NCBI RefSeq assembly: GCF_000807675.2
Contig: NZ_CP019962.1
Location: 4,251,157-4,315,156 of the forward strand
Source: Eubacterium limosum
GTDB taxonomy: Bacteria; Bacillota; Clostridia; Eubacteriales; Eubacteriaceae
Length of the DNA: 64,000 nucleotides
Reading direction: 5' to 3'
The position numbers and the translations under genes were made by a program. The notes under the pieces were generated by a model. It had not been told where the DNA came from. It saw only the letters and a program-made list of their open reading frames with translations, and made no database searches. Each line of letters begins with the position of its first letter. The stretch's first letter is position 1. Shown here in pieces: positions 8,839-41,993 of this stretch.

Positions 8839-10185
8839 ATGACAACAGACACAATCAAAAAACGTTATGGACTGTTTACAGCCATTGCCATGATTATCGG
8901 AATCGTCATCGGTTCCGGTATTTTTTTTAAAAGCGATAATATTTTAATTGCCACCGGCGGCAATGTCGTTCTGGGTGTAATCATCTTCTGCTTTGCGGCC
9001 GTCAGCATTATTTTTGGAAGCCTGACGGTGGCGGAGCTGGCCTCCCGAACCGACGAGCCCGGCGGGGTACTCACTTATGCCCGAATTTTTATAAACCCCA
9101 TGGCAGGCTCGGCCTACGGCTGGTTTCAAACCTTTGTCTATCTGCCCACCATCACCGTCGTGTTATCCTGGGTTTCGGGCATTTACTTTTGTATTTTCTT
9201 TAACATCAATGCCTCGCTGGAGCTTCAGTGTCTCGTGGGTTTTGGCCTGCTGACAGGTTTGTACCTCATGAACATGCTCTCGGCCAGGCTTGCCGGGCTT
9301 TTTCAGAACGCTGCGACGGTCATCAAGCTGATTCCACTTCTGATCATTGCGGTAGCGGGACTGGTCCACGGGAATACAGAAACCGCCACAGCCGCCATGC
9401 CGGCCCCAGCCACCGGGATGCTTCACGCTTCCTGGATTATGGCGATCCCCTCGGTGGCCTTCTCCTTTGACGGATGGATCATCTCCACCTCGGTGGCTCA
9501 TGAGATCAAAAACAGCCGGCGGAACCTGCCCATTGCGCTGGTCATCAGCCCCTTGTTTATTCTGCTCATGTACATCCTCTACTTTGTAGGTGTCACCAAC
9601 CTGCTGGGCGCCCCGGCCATTATGCAGCTGGGCGACGCTCACCTGGACCAGGCGGCGGCCATGGTTTTTGGCCCTTTTGGCGCTAAGCTTATCGGCTTCT
9701 TTGTTTTAATCTCTGTGCTTGGCGGTCTGAACGGTCTGGTCATGGGGATTTCGCAGATGCCCTACTCCCTGGCGCTTCAGAAAATGATCCCAGGCGCGGA
9801 TAAGCTCAAGGTTCTCACACCAAAGTCGGATTTTCCACTCAACTCGACCATCGCATCCTACCTGATTGTTACCTGCTGGTTTGTCGTCCATTATTTCACA
9901 CAGCGCTTTGGACTGCTGACCAACTCCGATGTGTCAGAAATCGCCATTGTGGTCTCTTACCTGCTCTACCTTCCTTTATACTACCAGGTCTTTAAACTTG
10001 GGAGAAAACAGCAGATTGGGGCTTTCAGAGGCATTCTGTGTCCGGTTCTGGCAGCGGTCGGCTCGCTGATCATCTTTTCAGGCGGTCTGCAAAGCCCGCT
10101 GTTTATTCTCTACATTGCCATCTGCCTTGTTTTTCTGGCTGCCGGCATGGTTTATTACCAAAAAATAACAAAAGCGCAGGTCTGA
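8839..10185 (+). CDS. APC-superfamily amino acid permease
   Basis: A 448-residue integral membrane protein with about twelve hydrophobic segments. The first, GLFTAIAMIIGIVIGSGIFF, carries the GSGIF loop that binds the amino acid carboxylate in LeuT-fold APC carriers. SVAFSFDGWIISTSVAHEIKN around residue 210 is typical of the LAT/serine-threonine exchanger group (YfnA/SteT-like). The start at 8839 has an AGGAGG site upstream. It is translated just after upp, and its stop codon lies inside the loop of the terminator at 10171-10200. The substrate is unknown; a neutral amino acid is likely. Confidence 0.85.
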   Translation: MTTDTIKKRYGLFTAIAMIIGIVIGSGIFFKSDNILIATGGNVVLGVIIFCFAAVSIIFGSLTVAELASRTDEPGGVLTYARIFINPMAGSAYGWFQTFVYLPTITVVLSWVSGIYFCIFFNINASLELQCLVGFGLLTGLYLMNMLSARLAGLFQNAATVIKLIPLLIIAVAGLVHGNTETATAAMPAPATGMLHASWIMAIPSVAFSFDGWIISTSVAHEIKNSRRNLPIALVISPLFILLMYILYFVGVTNLLGAPAIMQLGDAHLDQAAAMVFGPFGAKLIGFFVLISVLGGLNGLVMGISQMPYSLALQKMIPGADKLKVLTPKSDFPLNSTIASYLIVTCWFVVHYFTQRFGLLTNSDVSEIAIVVSYLLYLPLYYQVFKLGRKQQIGAFRGILCPVLAAVGSLIIFSGGLQSPLFILYIAICLVFLAAGMVYYQKITKAQV

Positions 10186-10200
10186 TGCCTGCGCTTTTTT
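10171..10200. terminator. Terminator overlapping the permease stop codon
   Basis: The arms AAGCGCAGG and CCTGCGCTT flank TCTGATG, which contains the permease TGA, and TTTTTT follows. On the minus strand the same hairpin would end the transcript of the 139-residue gene at 10423. Its right arm plus T-run is repeated at 10409-10421 on the other side of the repeat element. Confidence 0.85.
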
Positions 10201-10204
10201 CGTG

Positions 10205-10415
10205 TCAAAAAACTCAAGAGACGAAGTCTTTTACCTAAGGAAGAAAAAAGCGTCCTGCGGACACTCCGCTCAGGGCTATAGCTTCTTCACTACAGCAGAA
10301 GCTTGGATCTTATTAATGTCCGGCCGTTCAGGTAATACGGCACGATTCCTGGCCGTTTACCGCAGCGCCTGGATCTTTTTTCTTATCTGGATAAAAGACA
10401 TAGTCTCGGCCTGCG
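10205..10415. mobile_element. Repeat element copy 1 (~220-bp MITE-like, terminator-associated)
   Basis: The element begins TCAAAAAACTCAAGAGACGA and ends in TAAAAGACATAGTCTCGGCC. It contains GTCCTGCGGACAC, CTTCTTCACTA, GTCCGGC and GATTCCTGGCCGTTTACC, blocks also found in order in the copies at 21794 and 41736. The ends pair imperfectly with each other (GAGAC...CTTTTACC...GGAAGAAAAAA with TTTTTTCTTAT...GGATAAAAG...GTCTC). GCCTGCGCTTTTT occurs on both sides (10187-10199 and 10409-10421). No open reading frame fits, so the element is non-coding. Confidence 0.8.
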
Positions 10416-10422
10416 CTTTTTC

Positions 10423-10842
10423 TTATGCTTCTTTTGAATCGTCTTTATCCTTGGTTTCTTCTTCCTCGATTATTTCCGCGTCAGAAACGGCTTCTTCGTC
10501 TGTATCTTTGGCTGCTTCTCCGTTTTCTTCCTTTGTTTCTTCTTTGGTTTCTTCTTTGGCTTTCATTTCTTCTTCTCTGGCCTCAAGCTCTGCAATCTTT
10601 TCTTCTTTTTCTAAAATTTTGCGGCACAGCACATCACAAGGATCGTCACTGTCTTCAGCCAGATTTTCTTTTCGGGCTTCATAAACCGTTTTACCCAGCT
10701 CGGCAAAAAGCGCCTCGAGCTCGTGCTTTTCGGACACAATGGTGGTTTTTACCTTTGCGGCTTCTGCCAGGTCGCCGAGCATATCGGCTGTTGCGGCGGC
10801 CACGTCATTCAGGGTTTTTCCCAAATCATCAAAAATTGTCAT
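10423..10842 (-). CDS. Acidic coiled-coil protein of unknown function
   Basis: A 139-residue protein I do not recognise as a named family. Residues 1-60 form an amphipathic helical region (FDDLGKTLNDVAAATADML) resembling short clostridial proteins next to zinc-ribbon domains. A CDVLCRK segment follows, then a long Glu/Lys-rich heptad stretch (EKEEKIAELEAREEEMKAKE). The C-terminus is almost only Glu, Asp, Lys and Thr. It has no signal peptide or membrane segment and is probably a soluble rod-like or disordered cytoplasmic protein. It stands alone, convergent with the permease, with repeat element copy 1 between them. Confidence 0.75.
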   Translation of the reverse strand: MTIFDDLGKTLNDVAAATADMLGDLAEAAKVKTTIVSEKHELEALFAELGKTVYEARKENLAEDSDDPCDVLCRKILEKEEKIAELEAREEEMKAKEETKEETKEENGEAAKDTDEEAVSDAEIIEEEETKDKDDSKEA

Positions 10843-21666: not shown

Positions 21667-21713
21667 TGAGCTTGAATTTCATATTTTTTTGTAAATTAAA
21701 TATTTTCGGCAAA

Positions 21714-21751
21714 TAAAAAAAGCATTCATTCCTGTAAAACTGGAATGAATA
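21714..21751 (-). terminator. Intrinsic terminator upstream of the sigma54 control region
   Basis: Read on the minus strand, ATTCATTCC and GGAATGAAT pair, followed by GCTTTTTTTATT. It would stop transcripts arriving from the DUF362 gene before the sigma54 region. Confidence 0.75.
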
Positions 21752-21766
21752 CCTCTAAAATAAAAA

Positions 21767-21788
21767 GCTGCCTGAACGATCAGGCAGC
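21767..21788 (-). terminator. Terminator stem, outer copy flanking repeat element 2
   Basis: GCTGCCTGAACGATCAGGCAGC is self-complementary and followed on the minus strand by TTTTTATTTTA. An almost identical hairpin lies at 22027-22048 on the other side of the element. Confidence 0.8.
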
Positions 21789-21793
21789 CGAAT

Positions 21794-22019
21794 TGTCAAA
21801 AAACCCAAGAGACGAAGCCTTTTACCTAAGGAAGAAAAAAGCGTCCTGCGGGCACCACTTTCACGCAGATAGCTTCTTCACTAAAGTAGAAGCTTGATCT
21901 CACCAGTGTCCGGCTGTTCCGCTAAAGCAGCACGATTCCCGGCCGTCTACCACAACGCCTCGACCTTTTTTCTTATCTGGGTAAAAGGCACAGTCTCGGA
22001 CTGTGTCACTTTTTTGACA
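21794..22019. mobile_element. Repeat element copy 2 (~220-bp MITE-like, terminator-associated)
   Basis: This is the most complete copy: TGTCAAAAAACCCAAGAGAC at one end and CACTTTTTTGACA at the other. Imperfect terminal inverted repeats extend ~35 bp inward through GCCTTTTACC / GGTAAAAGGC. The internal blocks match copies 1 and 3 in order. It is flanked by near-identical hairpins (21767-21788 and 22027-22048) that look like a duplicated terminator stem. It has no coding capacity. Confidence 0.85.
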
Positions 22020-22026
22020 GTCTAAA

Positions 22027-22048
22027 GCTGCCTGATCGTTCAGGCAGC
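22027..22048 (-). terminator. Hairpin after the DUF362 gene, inner copy flanking repeat element 2
   Basis: GCTGCCTGATCGTTCAGGCAGC differs from the outer copy at two positions. It lies just after the stop at 22056 and has only TTTA after it on the minus strand. Efficient termination may therefore need the outer copy. Confidence 0.7.
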
Positions 22049-22055
22049 CTTTTCA

Positions 22056-23183
22056 CTATTTTACTTCAATCAATTCATATTGTCTGGTTCCAAGCCCGAT
22101 TTTTTCTGCGTGCTCCAGACATACGCGCCAGTCCGTTTCCGGGTGTGTGCAGGTAAAACGGTCGTGGTCTTCAGGGTCATGGACATGGTTTTTATGAATC
22201 TGATCTGCCAGATAGCTGCCGGGGATGATGGGCGCTTTGTTGCAAGCGTCGGCGCATGCCATGTCAAGAGCTACCGGATCATAAGAAGCAAACATGCCGA
22301 CATCCTGAATAATCGGCAGGTCATTTTCGGCATGGCAGTCGCAGAATGGTGAAACGTCCATTACCAGGCTGATATGAAAATTCGGACGGCCTTTTACAAC
22401 CGCCAGACTGTACTCAGCCATCTTCTTGTTGAGCACGTCAAAGCTTTCGTCATTTGGCGTAGCGATGGCATCAAAGGGGCAGATCCCGATACAGCGTCCG
22501 CATCCTACACATTTGTCATGGTCAATTACGGCTTTTTCCGGATATGAGATGGCATTCATCGCACAGATATCCTTACAGACTTTACAGTCGCGGCATTTCT
22601 TTTCAATGACATGGGGCTTTCCGGCATTGTGCATTTCCATTTTTCCGCGTCTGGAGCCGCAGCCCATCCCTATGTTCTTAAGAGCGCCTCCAAAGCCCGT
22701 GTTTTCATGGCCTTTAAAATGGCTCAGTGTAATGAAGATGTCCGCATCCATAACAGCGCGTCCTATTTTTGCCTCTTTGATGTATTCACCATTCACCGGC
22801 ACTTCCACCTCATCGGTTCCCTTAAGGCCATCGGCAATGATCAGCTGACAGCCGGTAGTAAATGGATTATAGCCATTTTCATAGGCAGCGTCGAGATGCT
22901 CCAGGGCGTCCTTCCGGCGCCCTACATACAGGGTGTTGCAGTCTGTCAGAAAGGGCTTGCCGCCCTGCTCTTTAATCAGCTCCACCACAACCCTGGAAAA
23001 ATTTGGCCGGAGATAGGCGATATTTCCAGGCTCTCCAAAATGGATTTTAATGGCTGTAAATTTATTTTCAAAATCAATTTCGGTCATTCCTGCCTCAATG
23101 ATCAGCTTCTTAAGCTTTTGCAGGAGATTCATTTTGGGATTTGCCCTGAAATTCGTAAAGTAGACCTTTGCTTTTTCGTTCAT
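22056..23183 (-). CDS. DUF362 domain protein with two 4Fe-4S clusters
   Basis: A 375-residue protein. The N-terminal DUF362 domain contains GEPGNIAYLRPNF, TDCNTLYVGRRKD and LSHFKGHENTGFGG. A bacterial ferredoxin insert follows with two CxxCxxC clusters, CRDCKVCKDIC and CVGCGRCIGICPFD, around residues 196-235. The rest of DUF362 resumes afterwards. Such proteins are frequent in acetogens and clostridia, and their role is unknown beyond likely electron transfer. It is monocistronic, between the ABC exporter and repeat element 2. The start has the context GGCGTTAAATAAATATG, with a moderate ribosome site. Confidence 0.88.
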   Translation of the reverse strand: MNEKAKVYFTNFRANPKMNLLQKLKKLIIEAGMTEIDFENKFTAIKIHFGEPGNIAYLRPNFSRVVVELIKEQGGKPFLTDCNTLYVGRRKDALEHLDAAYENGYNPFTTGCQLIIADGLKGTDEVEVPVNGEYIKEAKIGRAVMDADIFITLSHFKGHENTGFGGALKNIGMGCGSRRGKMEMHNAGKPHVIEKKCRDCKVCKDICAMNAISYPEKAVIDHDKCVGCGRCIGICPFDAIATPNDESFDVLNKKMAEYSLAVVKGRPNFHISLVMDVSPFCDCHAENDLPIIQDVGMFASYDPVALDMACADACNKAPIIPGSYLADQIHKNHVHDPEDHDRFTCTHPETDWRVCLEHAEKIGLGTRQYELIEVK

Positions 23184-27795: not shown

Positions 27796-27811
27796 ATGGT
27801 TAGTTAAATAT

Positions 27812-27960
27812 TGAATGATCCTATGTTCAAGGGAAAAAGGTGAAAATCCTTTGCTGTAATCGCAGCTGTAAGGTAAAATGCCCGTTTCAATCCACTGTCC
27901 TCACGGATGGGAAGGGAAACCGGATGATATTACCGAGCCAGAAGACCTATATAGGAGTTT
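27812..27960 (+). ncRNA. Cobalamin riboswitch without a downstream gene
   Basis: The aptamer core is clear: AAGGGAAAAAGGTGAAAATCC, then GCTGTAATCGCAGCTGTAAG (B12 box), CCACTG, GGATGGGAAGGG, and GAGCCAGAAGACCT. The order and spacing fit the cobalamin family. A terminator follows at 28022-28055, but the plus strand then carries no gene. The next gene is convergent. The switch therefore controls a short RNA, an antisense extension, or a lost gene. Confidence 0.88.
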
Positions 27961-28021
27961 ATTCTTAAGTGCCTCCGATTTAGAGGGTTTGAGAGCTACC
28001 ATGTACCATGTTAGTATTTTT

Positions 28022-34477: not shown

Positions 34478-34590
34478 TGTCCACCGATGATGATGGATTT
34501 CCGTAGCAGCTGGCTGCCATTACCGTTTACCGGCTTCAGGCCCTTTAGTTTTGCGTCTCTGCCTTTCAACAGATTTGCCCTTTTTACGTT
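34478..34590 (-). ncRNA. Cyclic di-GMP-I (GEMM-I) riboswitch
   Basis: The minus strand reads GGGCAAATCTGTTGAAAGGC, then AGAGACGCAAAACTAAAGGG, CCTGAAGCC and ATGGCAGCCAGCTGC. GAAA, GACGCAAA, GGGCC and the GNCAGCCAG-like tetraloop receptor follow the class-I order. Together with the terminator it forms a leader for the M60/cohesin operon. The remainder of the 34372-34738 gap shows only a PhoU terminator. Confidence 0.82.
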
Positions 34591-41708: not shown

Positions 41709-41729
41709 AATCCGTCGCAATGACGGATT
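41709..41729 (-). terminator. Terminator stem, outer copy flanking repeat element 3
   Basis: AATCCGTC and GACGGATT pair around GCAAT, with TTTTTTTATT after the stem on the minus strand. Related sequence recurs at 41963-41982 on the other side of the element. Confidence 0.75.
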
Positions 41730-41735
41730 CAGCGC

Positions 41736-41956
41736 ATCAAAAAACTTCAAGAGACGGAGCCTTTTACCTAAGGAAAAAAAGAGTCCTGCGGGCACTGCCT
41801 TTAAACTTGTATCTTCTTTAATAAAGTAGACGTTTGATCCCTCCAGTGTCCGGCATTTCCGGTAAAAAGTATGATTCCCGGCCGTTTACCGCAGCGCTTG
41901 GACCTTTTTCTTATCTGGATAAAAGGCGTAGTCTCGGCCTGCGCCACTTCTTTGGC
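41736..41956. mobile_element. Repeat element copy 3 (~220-bp MITE-like, terminator-associated)
   Basis: The copy begins ATCAAAAAACTTCAAGAGAC and ends TAGTCTCGGCCTGCGCCACT followed by TCTTTGGCA. Blocks GTCCTGCGGGCAC, GTCCGGC, GATTCCCGGCCGTTTACC and CTTATCTGGATAAAAGGC correspond to copies 1 and 2. It lies between the flavin reductase stop (41994) and the terminator at 41709. This 41610-41993 stretch contains no gene. Confidence 0.82.
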
Positions 41957-41993
41957 AAATTGAATCCGTCATCATGACAGATCTATCATTTTC

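Follow-up and report, generated by a model that had tools for sequence, protein, structure and literature searches.

A probable MITE-like element of Eubacterium limosum flanked by duplicated terminator hairpins

In the genome of Eubacterium limosum we observed a family of short repeats lying between two copies of a hairpin, and at orthologous sites where congeners lack the repeat the hairpin is present only once. The repeat is best explained as a non-autonomous DNA transposon of the MITE-like kind, about 220–240 bp long and with imperfect terminal inverted repeats, which inserts at the centre of the terminator dyad and duplicates the hairpin. We give this reading a probability of roughly 0.8.

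The analysis started from a stretch of 64,000 nucleotides at G000:C1:4251157-4315156 (the window) and from an earlier note on it, which described a repeat that has terminal inverted repeats, targets terminators and appeared to have duplicated a terminator stem on insertion. That observation was confirmed, and the note had understated it. Unoccupied orthologous sites bear out the duplication. The following features of the window are referred to below (strand in brackets where one applies).

21790..22023 (+): the 234-bp focal copy, flanked by two hairpin copies, from inspection of the sequence
21764..21789: left hairpin of the focal copy, one copy of the duplicated terminator stem-loop, 26 nt
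22024..22049: right hairpin of the focal copy, the second duplicate, 26 nt, with a T-run on its outer side
22056..23183 (-): gene of 375 aa whose 3′ end adjoins the focal copy, an open reading frame with ferredoxin-type NCBIfam matches only below the cut-offs
10201..10409 (+): second copy, lacking the right terminus through loss
10170..10200: hairpin left of the second copy, with an A-run and a T-run; 10410-10421 repeats the right half of this hairpin
41730..41962 (+): third copy of the element
41709..41729: hairpin on the left side of the third copy
41963..41983: diverged hairpin-like sequence on the right side of the third copy

Copies, ends and distribution

The three copies reported earlier for the window were recovered by nhmmer, with core matches at 10206-10424, 21797-22018 and 41740-41955, all on the + strand. 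The element is real, but the true ends of the focal copy lie a few bases further out than first proposed, at 21790-22023. Aligned with each other, the flanks of this copy scored 21 in direct and 25 in inverted orientation, against 99th percentiles of 11.5 and 13.0 for mismatched pairs. The flanks of the third copy scored 10 and 12, both under the 99th percentile and not significant for that copy alone.

The two hairpins bounding the focal copy had been called near-identical. So they are, apart from one loop, which is reverse-complemented; such a flip is not seen in most copies, and plain duplication does not account for it.

The ends of the element are imperfect inverted repeats with CAGNSTGTCAAARAA at both ends, as is usual for a MITE. 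Beyond the duplication, each end reads CAGNSTGTCAAA in the inward direction (left CAGNGTGTCAAAAAACC, right CAGRCTGTCAAAGAAGTGG), although individual copies vary. These end bases are missing from unoccupied sites and therefore belong to the element. The ends pair with each other in the predicted folds of both strands, as had been suggested.

As a BLAST query, the focal copy gave 45 matches in its own 4.42-Mb single-contig genome (G000). The wider covariance-model search proposed in the earlier note was carried out with a model built from 44 copies. At E <= 0.01 it matched the own genome 89 times, G002 58 times, G003 37 times, G001 17 times and G004 not at all. Partial and divergent matches, and those on the opposite strand, are included in these counts; of the 89, 61 reached at least 100 bits. 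The family is present, then, in three of the four other congeneric genomes searched. The focal copy contains no open reading frame of at least 80 aa, and with its 89 matches the repeat has the character of a MITE: short, multicopy and without coding capacity. Rfam gave no match for the element at gathering score anywhere in the window, and the 11 matches within 21700-22100 were every one far below that score. Elsewhere in the window Rfam placed two riboswitches, a cobalamin one at 27806-27968 (+) and a c-di-GMP-I one at 34502-34589 (-).

Among 41 genomes searched by BLAST the repeat was found in four, all of the same genus, and in none of the 36 outside it, with at most 19 candidates scored per genome. 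Applied to 391 genomes of the class with five candidates scored per genome and stricter filters, the model matched only the own genome and, weakly, a single 101-bp place in G404, which we take for chance. Phages, plasmids and E. coli genomes gave no match. An exact 24-mer, an insensitive probe, occurred in 12 stretches of genome_contigs, a collection from which the own genome is possibly absent, all of them E. callanderi FD, and in none of viral_contigs. Within the genomes searched, the element is thus restricted to the genus. The portions of the open-licence literature covered by our search contained no description of it.

The hairpin as a target-site duplication

Sixteen copies with clear flanks were traced into three congeners by their flanking sequence, the left and right flanks being aligned separately. 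In a congener without the element the two flanks overlap on a single hairpin, and the occupied site carries two. At 9 of the 16 traced sites one or more congeners showed an overlap of 21 bp or longer; the overlap was 10–12 bp at two sites, and no clean overlap was found at five. The overlaps by site were as follows.

L009: 21 and 21 bp
L012: 27, 25 and 27 bp
L020: 30 and 31 bp
L022: 29 and 30 bp
L024: 27, 27 and 22 bp
L026: 25 and 9 bp
L032: 23 and 25 bp
L038: 31, 39 and 14 bp
L042: 29, 29 and 29 bp
L010: 12 bp
L028: 10 bp
L014, L030, L031, L033: no overlap
L016: overlap confused by local repeats

The hairpin is a target-site duplication, mostly of 21–31 bp, and in having one the element again agrees with a MITE. 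Congeners differ by insertion: G003, for instance, shares the element at L010, L014 and L032, and G001 and G002 lack it there. The generalisation that every copy lies in a recognisable terminator with a duplicated stem, which the earlier note had left to be checked, was not upheld.

For a broader view we compared the flanks of 75 copies (90 nt on each side; 57 from the own genome, 10 from G003 and four each from G001 and G002, some of them mutually orthologous) with 3000 mismatched left/right pairs, whose 99th percentile served as the threshold. Flanking direct repeats exceeded it in 41 of the 75 copies, and 34 had no significant flanking repeat. Outside tandem or complex loci the count was 33 of 60, or 26 of 43 in the own genome only. 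The flanks aligned better in direct orientation in 49 of the 75 copies and in inverted orientation in 18, with eight ties.

The position of the dyad was measured in 33 usable duplications, which remained after repeats scoring below 12, distant repeats, identical duplications and tandem or complex loci (L029, L035, L037, L041, L063 and L167; the tandem L058 was retained) had been dropped. In 25 of them the inverted repeat went beyond 99% of its own shuffles. An earlier measure of the offset from the centre had searched within 5 nt only and was repeated without a bound: in 27 of the 33 rebuilt empty sites, the best inverted repeat lay no more than 3 nt from the midpoint of the duplication, compared with 11% for shuffled sequences. 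We dropped the idea that the length of the duplication tracks that of the hairpin. The correlation of rho 0.79 came from a measure with a built-in bound; without the bound it fell to rho 0.18 (p 0.36), and a fold-based measure gave rho 0.32 (p 0.07).

A terminator-like hairpin with a T-run was found in the flanks of 43 of the 75 copies; 36 such hairpins lie on the left, reading outward, and 18 on the right. Random 75-nt segments contain one in 2.6% of cases, which makes the chance expectation for two flanks about 5%.

At five of the 16 traced sites (L009, L020, L026, L028 and L031) the same hairpin is accompanied in a congener by another insert, about 120–270 bp long. With one such insert as the query, BLAST gave 61 matches in G001, 17 in G003, nine in the own genome and three in G002. 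These matches make up a second repeat family (family II), which has another interior and uses the same hairpins as the first. Its copy at L105:901-1160 has the same kind of hairpins and a palindromic interior rich in GTTGAAAGTGG. Family II is common in G001, and the first family is less frequent there. In G003 the L030 site holds a copy of the first family in reverse orientation, through either an independent insertion or an inversion.

Tandem copies joined by a hairpin also occur, for instance at L058 (hairpin-element-hairpin-element-hairpin), as expected from recombination between duplicated hairpins. L063 (G000:C1:3105152-3106136) is an array in which four divergent copies are spaced at about 247 bp, with one further copy in the opposite orientation at 3106221-3106463. 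L065 and L062 (G000:C1:1461276-1461605 and 1433876-1434204) are about 330 bp long; they have the ends of the family but share a different interior, in which short hairpins abound. Copies of about 95 bp were considered as minimal mobile forms and rejected as such: by eye, several seem to have arisen by internal deletion between CCTTTT repeats, and the deletions differ in two copies whose flanks are similar in two genomes.

Orientation and the folded interior

The forward strand of the element is the C-rich strand at 43 of 48 own-genome loci (p 1.4e-8 if the loci are independent). The same holds at 9 of 10 loci in G003 and all four in G002; G001, with two of four, has no bias. In the four genomes together the count is 58 of 66 loci, tandem loci being reduced to one copy each, and these 66 are not independent because copies in different genomes are partly orthologous. 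Among the loci examined, the sign of the GC skew switches in two intervals, about 0.67–0.81 Mb and about 3.7–3.9 Mb, with one locus at 3.12 Mb near zero, and the orientation of the element flips in the same intervals.

Transcription is a poorer guide. All three copies in the window have the same orientation relative to the gene whose 3′ end they occupy, and the earlier note had remarked on this; genome-wide the relation is not fixed, as a gene 3′ end faces only the right end at 31 loci and only the left end at 14. At the 12 loci where the two rules conflict, replication was followed in ten and transcription in two. With genes taken as crude open reading frames and skew as a local value rather than one relative to a mapped origin, orientation follows the direction of replication better than that of transcription.

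The earlier note had left the choice between a MITE and a long folded RNA. Our results favour the former, and we keep the latter as a lesser rival, in which a structured RNA or 3′-UTR regulatory element is under selection, the hairpins are part of its architecture and spread took place by unrelated means. We consider this unlikely, although the folding data speak partly for it. As RNA, a 242-nt stretch with the focal copy folded better on the + strand than all 200 dinucleotide shuffles (z -5.06), and on the - strand three of 200 shuffles were equally good (z -2.34). A consensus fold of the + strand, from 69 aligned copies (those of the 75 scoring below 120 were dropped), consists of a long basal stem and three inner helices, and changes of the wobble type favour the + strand in 156 cells against 89.

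Against it, the hairpins differ between sites and correspond to the one hairpin present where the site is unoccupied. The covariation term of RNAalifold is small (-0.62 for 44 copies), and 7 of 27 pairs changed on both sides. As DNA, the two strands fold about equally, with no strand preference (z -4.00 on +, -4.59 on -). Since genes enter from the right only at 31 loci and from the left only at 14, no single strand is always the read-through transcript. The lack of any Rfam match at gathering score also argues against a structured RNA.

A 130-nt part alone is unremarkable in its fold (z -0.23). The most conserved parts are the arms of the stems, one short inner strand excepted. Such conserved, folded parts of the interior exceed the needs of a passive MITE, and this counts against the MITE-like reading. 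The folded interior may have a function, either in RNA form or as DNA used by the enzyme, and a mobile element could well contain such a function.

The putative transposase, related systems and consequences

For the MITE-like element we infer a transposase and a step coupled to replication. The transposase, supplied in trans or now lost, would insert the element at the dyad centre of intrinsic terminators. Its two joining points would flank the hairpin, mostly 21–31 bp apart, so that gap filling would duplicate the hairpin; the direction of replication would mainly set the orientation.

A full-length element with the same ends, which the earlier note had proposed looking for, was found neither with a left-end model in the own genome nor in end-pattern scans of candidate transposase loci. 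The left-end model (60 nt) gave 87 matches at E <= 1, of which the 64 at E <= 0.001 all lie on known copies or remnants. With 150 of 4128 first-look candidates scored, it revealed no unpaired left end pointing to a long partner in the own genome. The end pattern of family II, with one mismatch allowed, occurred at 46 places in five genomes, with no inverted pair 1–4 kb apart.

An rve-domain model, which is not specific to IS1202, picked out four genes in the own genome and ten in three congeners. The end pattern formed no pair around any of these loci; one-sided matches were seen at L160 and L182, against a background of 8 per 64 kb. Ten loci with IS30-type homologues were examined for inverted and direct repeats and none fits, nor did the end-pattern scan of IS30-type loci other than L144, L152 and L159 show one with the ends of the element. 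Among rve-domain, IS30-type and Y1 genes, the classes covered by the search, there was no autonomous copy or matching transposase. Many MITEs have no known autonomous partner.

One IS30-type transposase gene adjoins a gene whose translation reads as a putative Rep/helicase of small circular replicons, at L055/L141 (G000:C1 ~237435-238469) and likewise at L143 in G001 and L142 in G002. L141 and L143 share about 2.4 kb across the IS30-type and Rep/helicase-like genes, in which no terminal repeats were found.

The strong replication-strand bias, the hairpin targets and the folded ends could also point to an HUH (Y1) transposase of the REPIN-RAYT or IS200/IS605 type, which would move the element as single-stranded DNA, with the lagging strand setting its orientation. 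Y1 genes are indeed present in the genome. However, all three Y1 matches, at two loci, carry an in-frame stop, neither element model matches around them, and no intact Y1-type gene flanked by the repeat, as in REPIN/RAYT systems, was found. Moreover, the element makes a target duplication, and to our knowledge REPIN-RAYT and IS200/IS605 systems make none. We therefore hold an HUH mechanism to be very unlikely. Highly improbable, in our opinion, is a Cas1-like integrase that duplicates a palindromic repeat on insertion and builds repeat-element-repeat arrays: the palindrome is duplicated and L058 has such an array, but its units are nearly identical, unequal recombination between hairpins explains it more simply, and nothing in our data links such an enzyme to the ends of the element.

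The precedent for the reaction that we propose for the MITE-like element is IS1630. In Mycoplasma fermentans strain M64, four of seven complete copies are described as having duplicated junctions of 16, 23, 25 and 26 bp (PMC3317919, citing Calcutt et al. 1999). IS1630-like members of the IS30 family duplicate inverted repeats of about 16–26 bp, similar to the hairpins of mostly 21–31 bp duplicated here. IS1630 is 1.2–1.4 kb long and encodes its own transposase, whereas the element has no coding capacity. Because the IS30-type genes examined in the own genome and its congeners lack the ends of the element, we do not file it as an IS30-family or IS1630-like member.

The long-duplication subgroup of the IS1202 family is a second candidate type. 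Its duplications are given as 16–28 bp, and the outer ends of its Acinetobacter members as 5′-TGT/ACA-3′ (PMC10132070, PMC10045372); for this group, the abstract of PMC10132070 states that no target was found. The element resembles them in having TGTC four or five bases inside its ends. It differs in that its ends begin with CAG and that the rve-domain model led to no IS1202-type transposase, and we prefer to call it MITE-like rather than a member of IS1202.

BOX, RUP, SPRITE and BrickBuilt repeats are likewise short, non-coding, intergenic, folded and present in many copies. SPRITE shows enrichment at the 3′ ends of genes, and terminators are predicted to flank BrickBuilt in 10 of 19 cases. 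Duplication of a whole terminator hairpin on insertion is not described for any of the four in the sections consulted (PMC3049150, PMC4596501, PMC10969869).

A bolder version of the mechanism, which we put forward tentatively and think rather doubtful, is an enzyme that would recognise the terminator hairpin or cruciform at replication forks and join the element across its foot, and that would be shared by at least two element families of the genus. Joining across the foot would mean that the duplication is set by DNA structure and not by a fixed spacing of cuts. Against this, the length of the duplication did not track that of the hairpin in the unbounded measure. If such a structure-guided enzyme existed, terminators would be replication-linked landing sites and gene 3′ ends would be steadily rewritten.

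Insertion of the MITE-like element would also be expected to affect neighbouring transcripts. As the whole T-run is not inside the duplication, the gene-proximal hairpin has no full T-run on its inner side. The hairpin beside the stop codon is thereby separated from the T-run, so termination should shift to the far hairpin, about 260 nt further on. Each insertion is thus predicted to part the proximal hairpin from its U-tract and to lengthen the 3′ UTR by about 260 nt.

In the literature consulted, long duplications at palindromes are on record for single insertion sequences, and how long-duplication elements choose their targets is largely unsettled. Here, tens of insertions together with unoccupied sites in congeners fix the target as terminator hairpins and the duplication as the hairpin itself, and they offer the direction of replication as a candidate rule of orientation.
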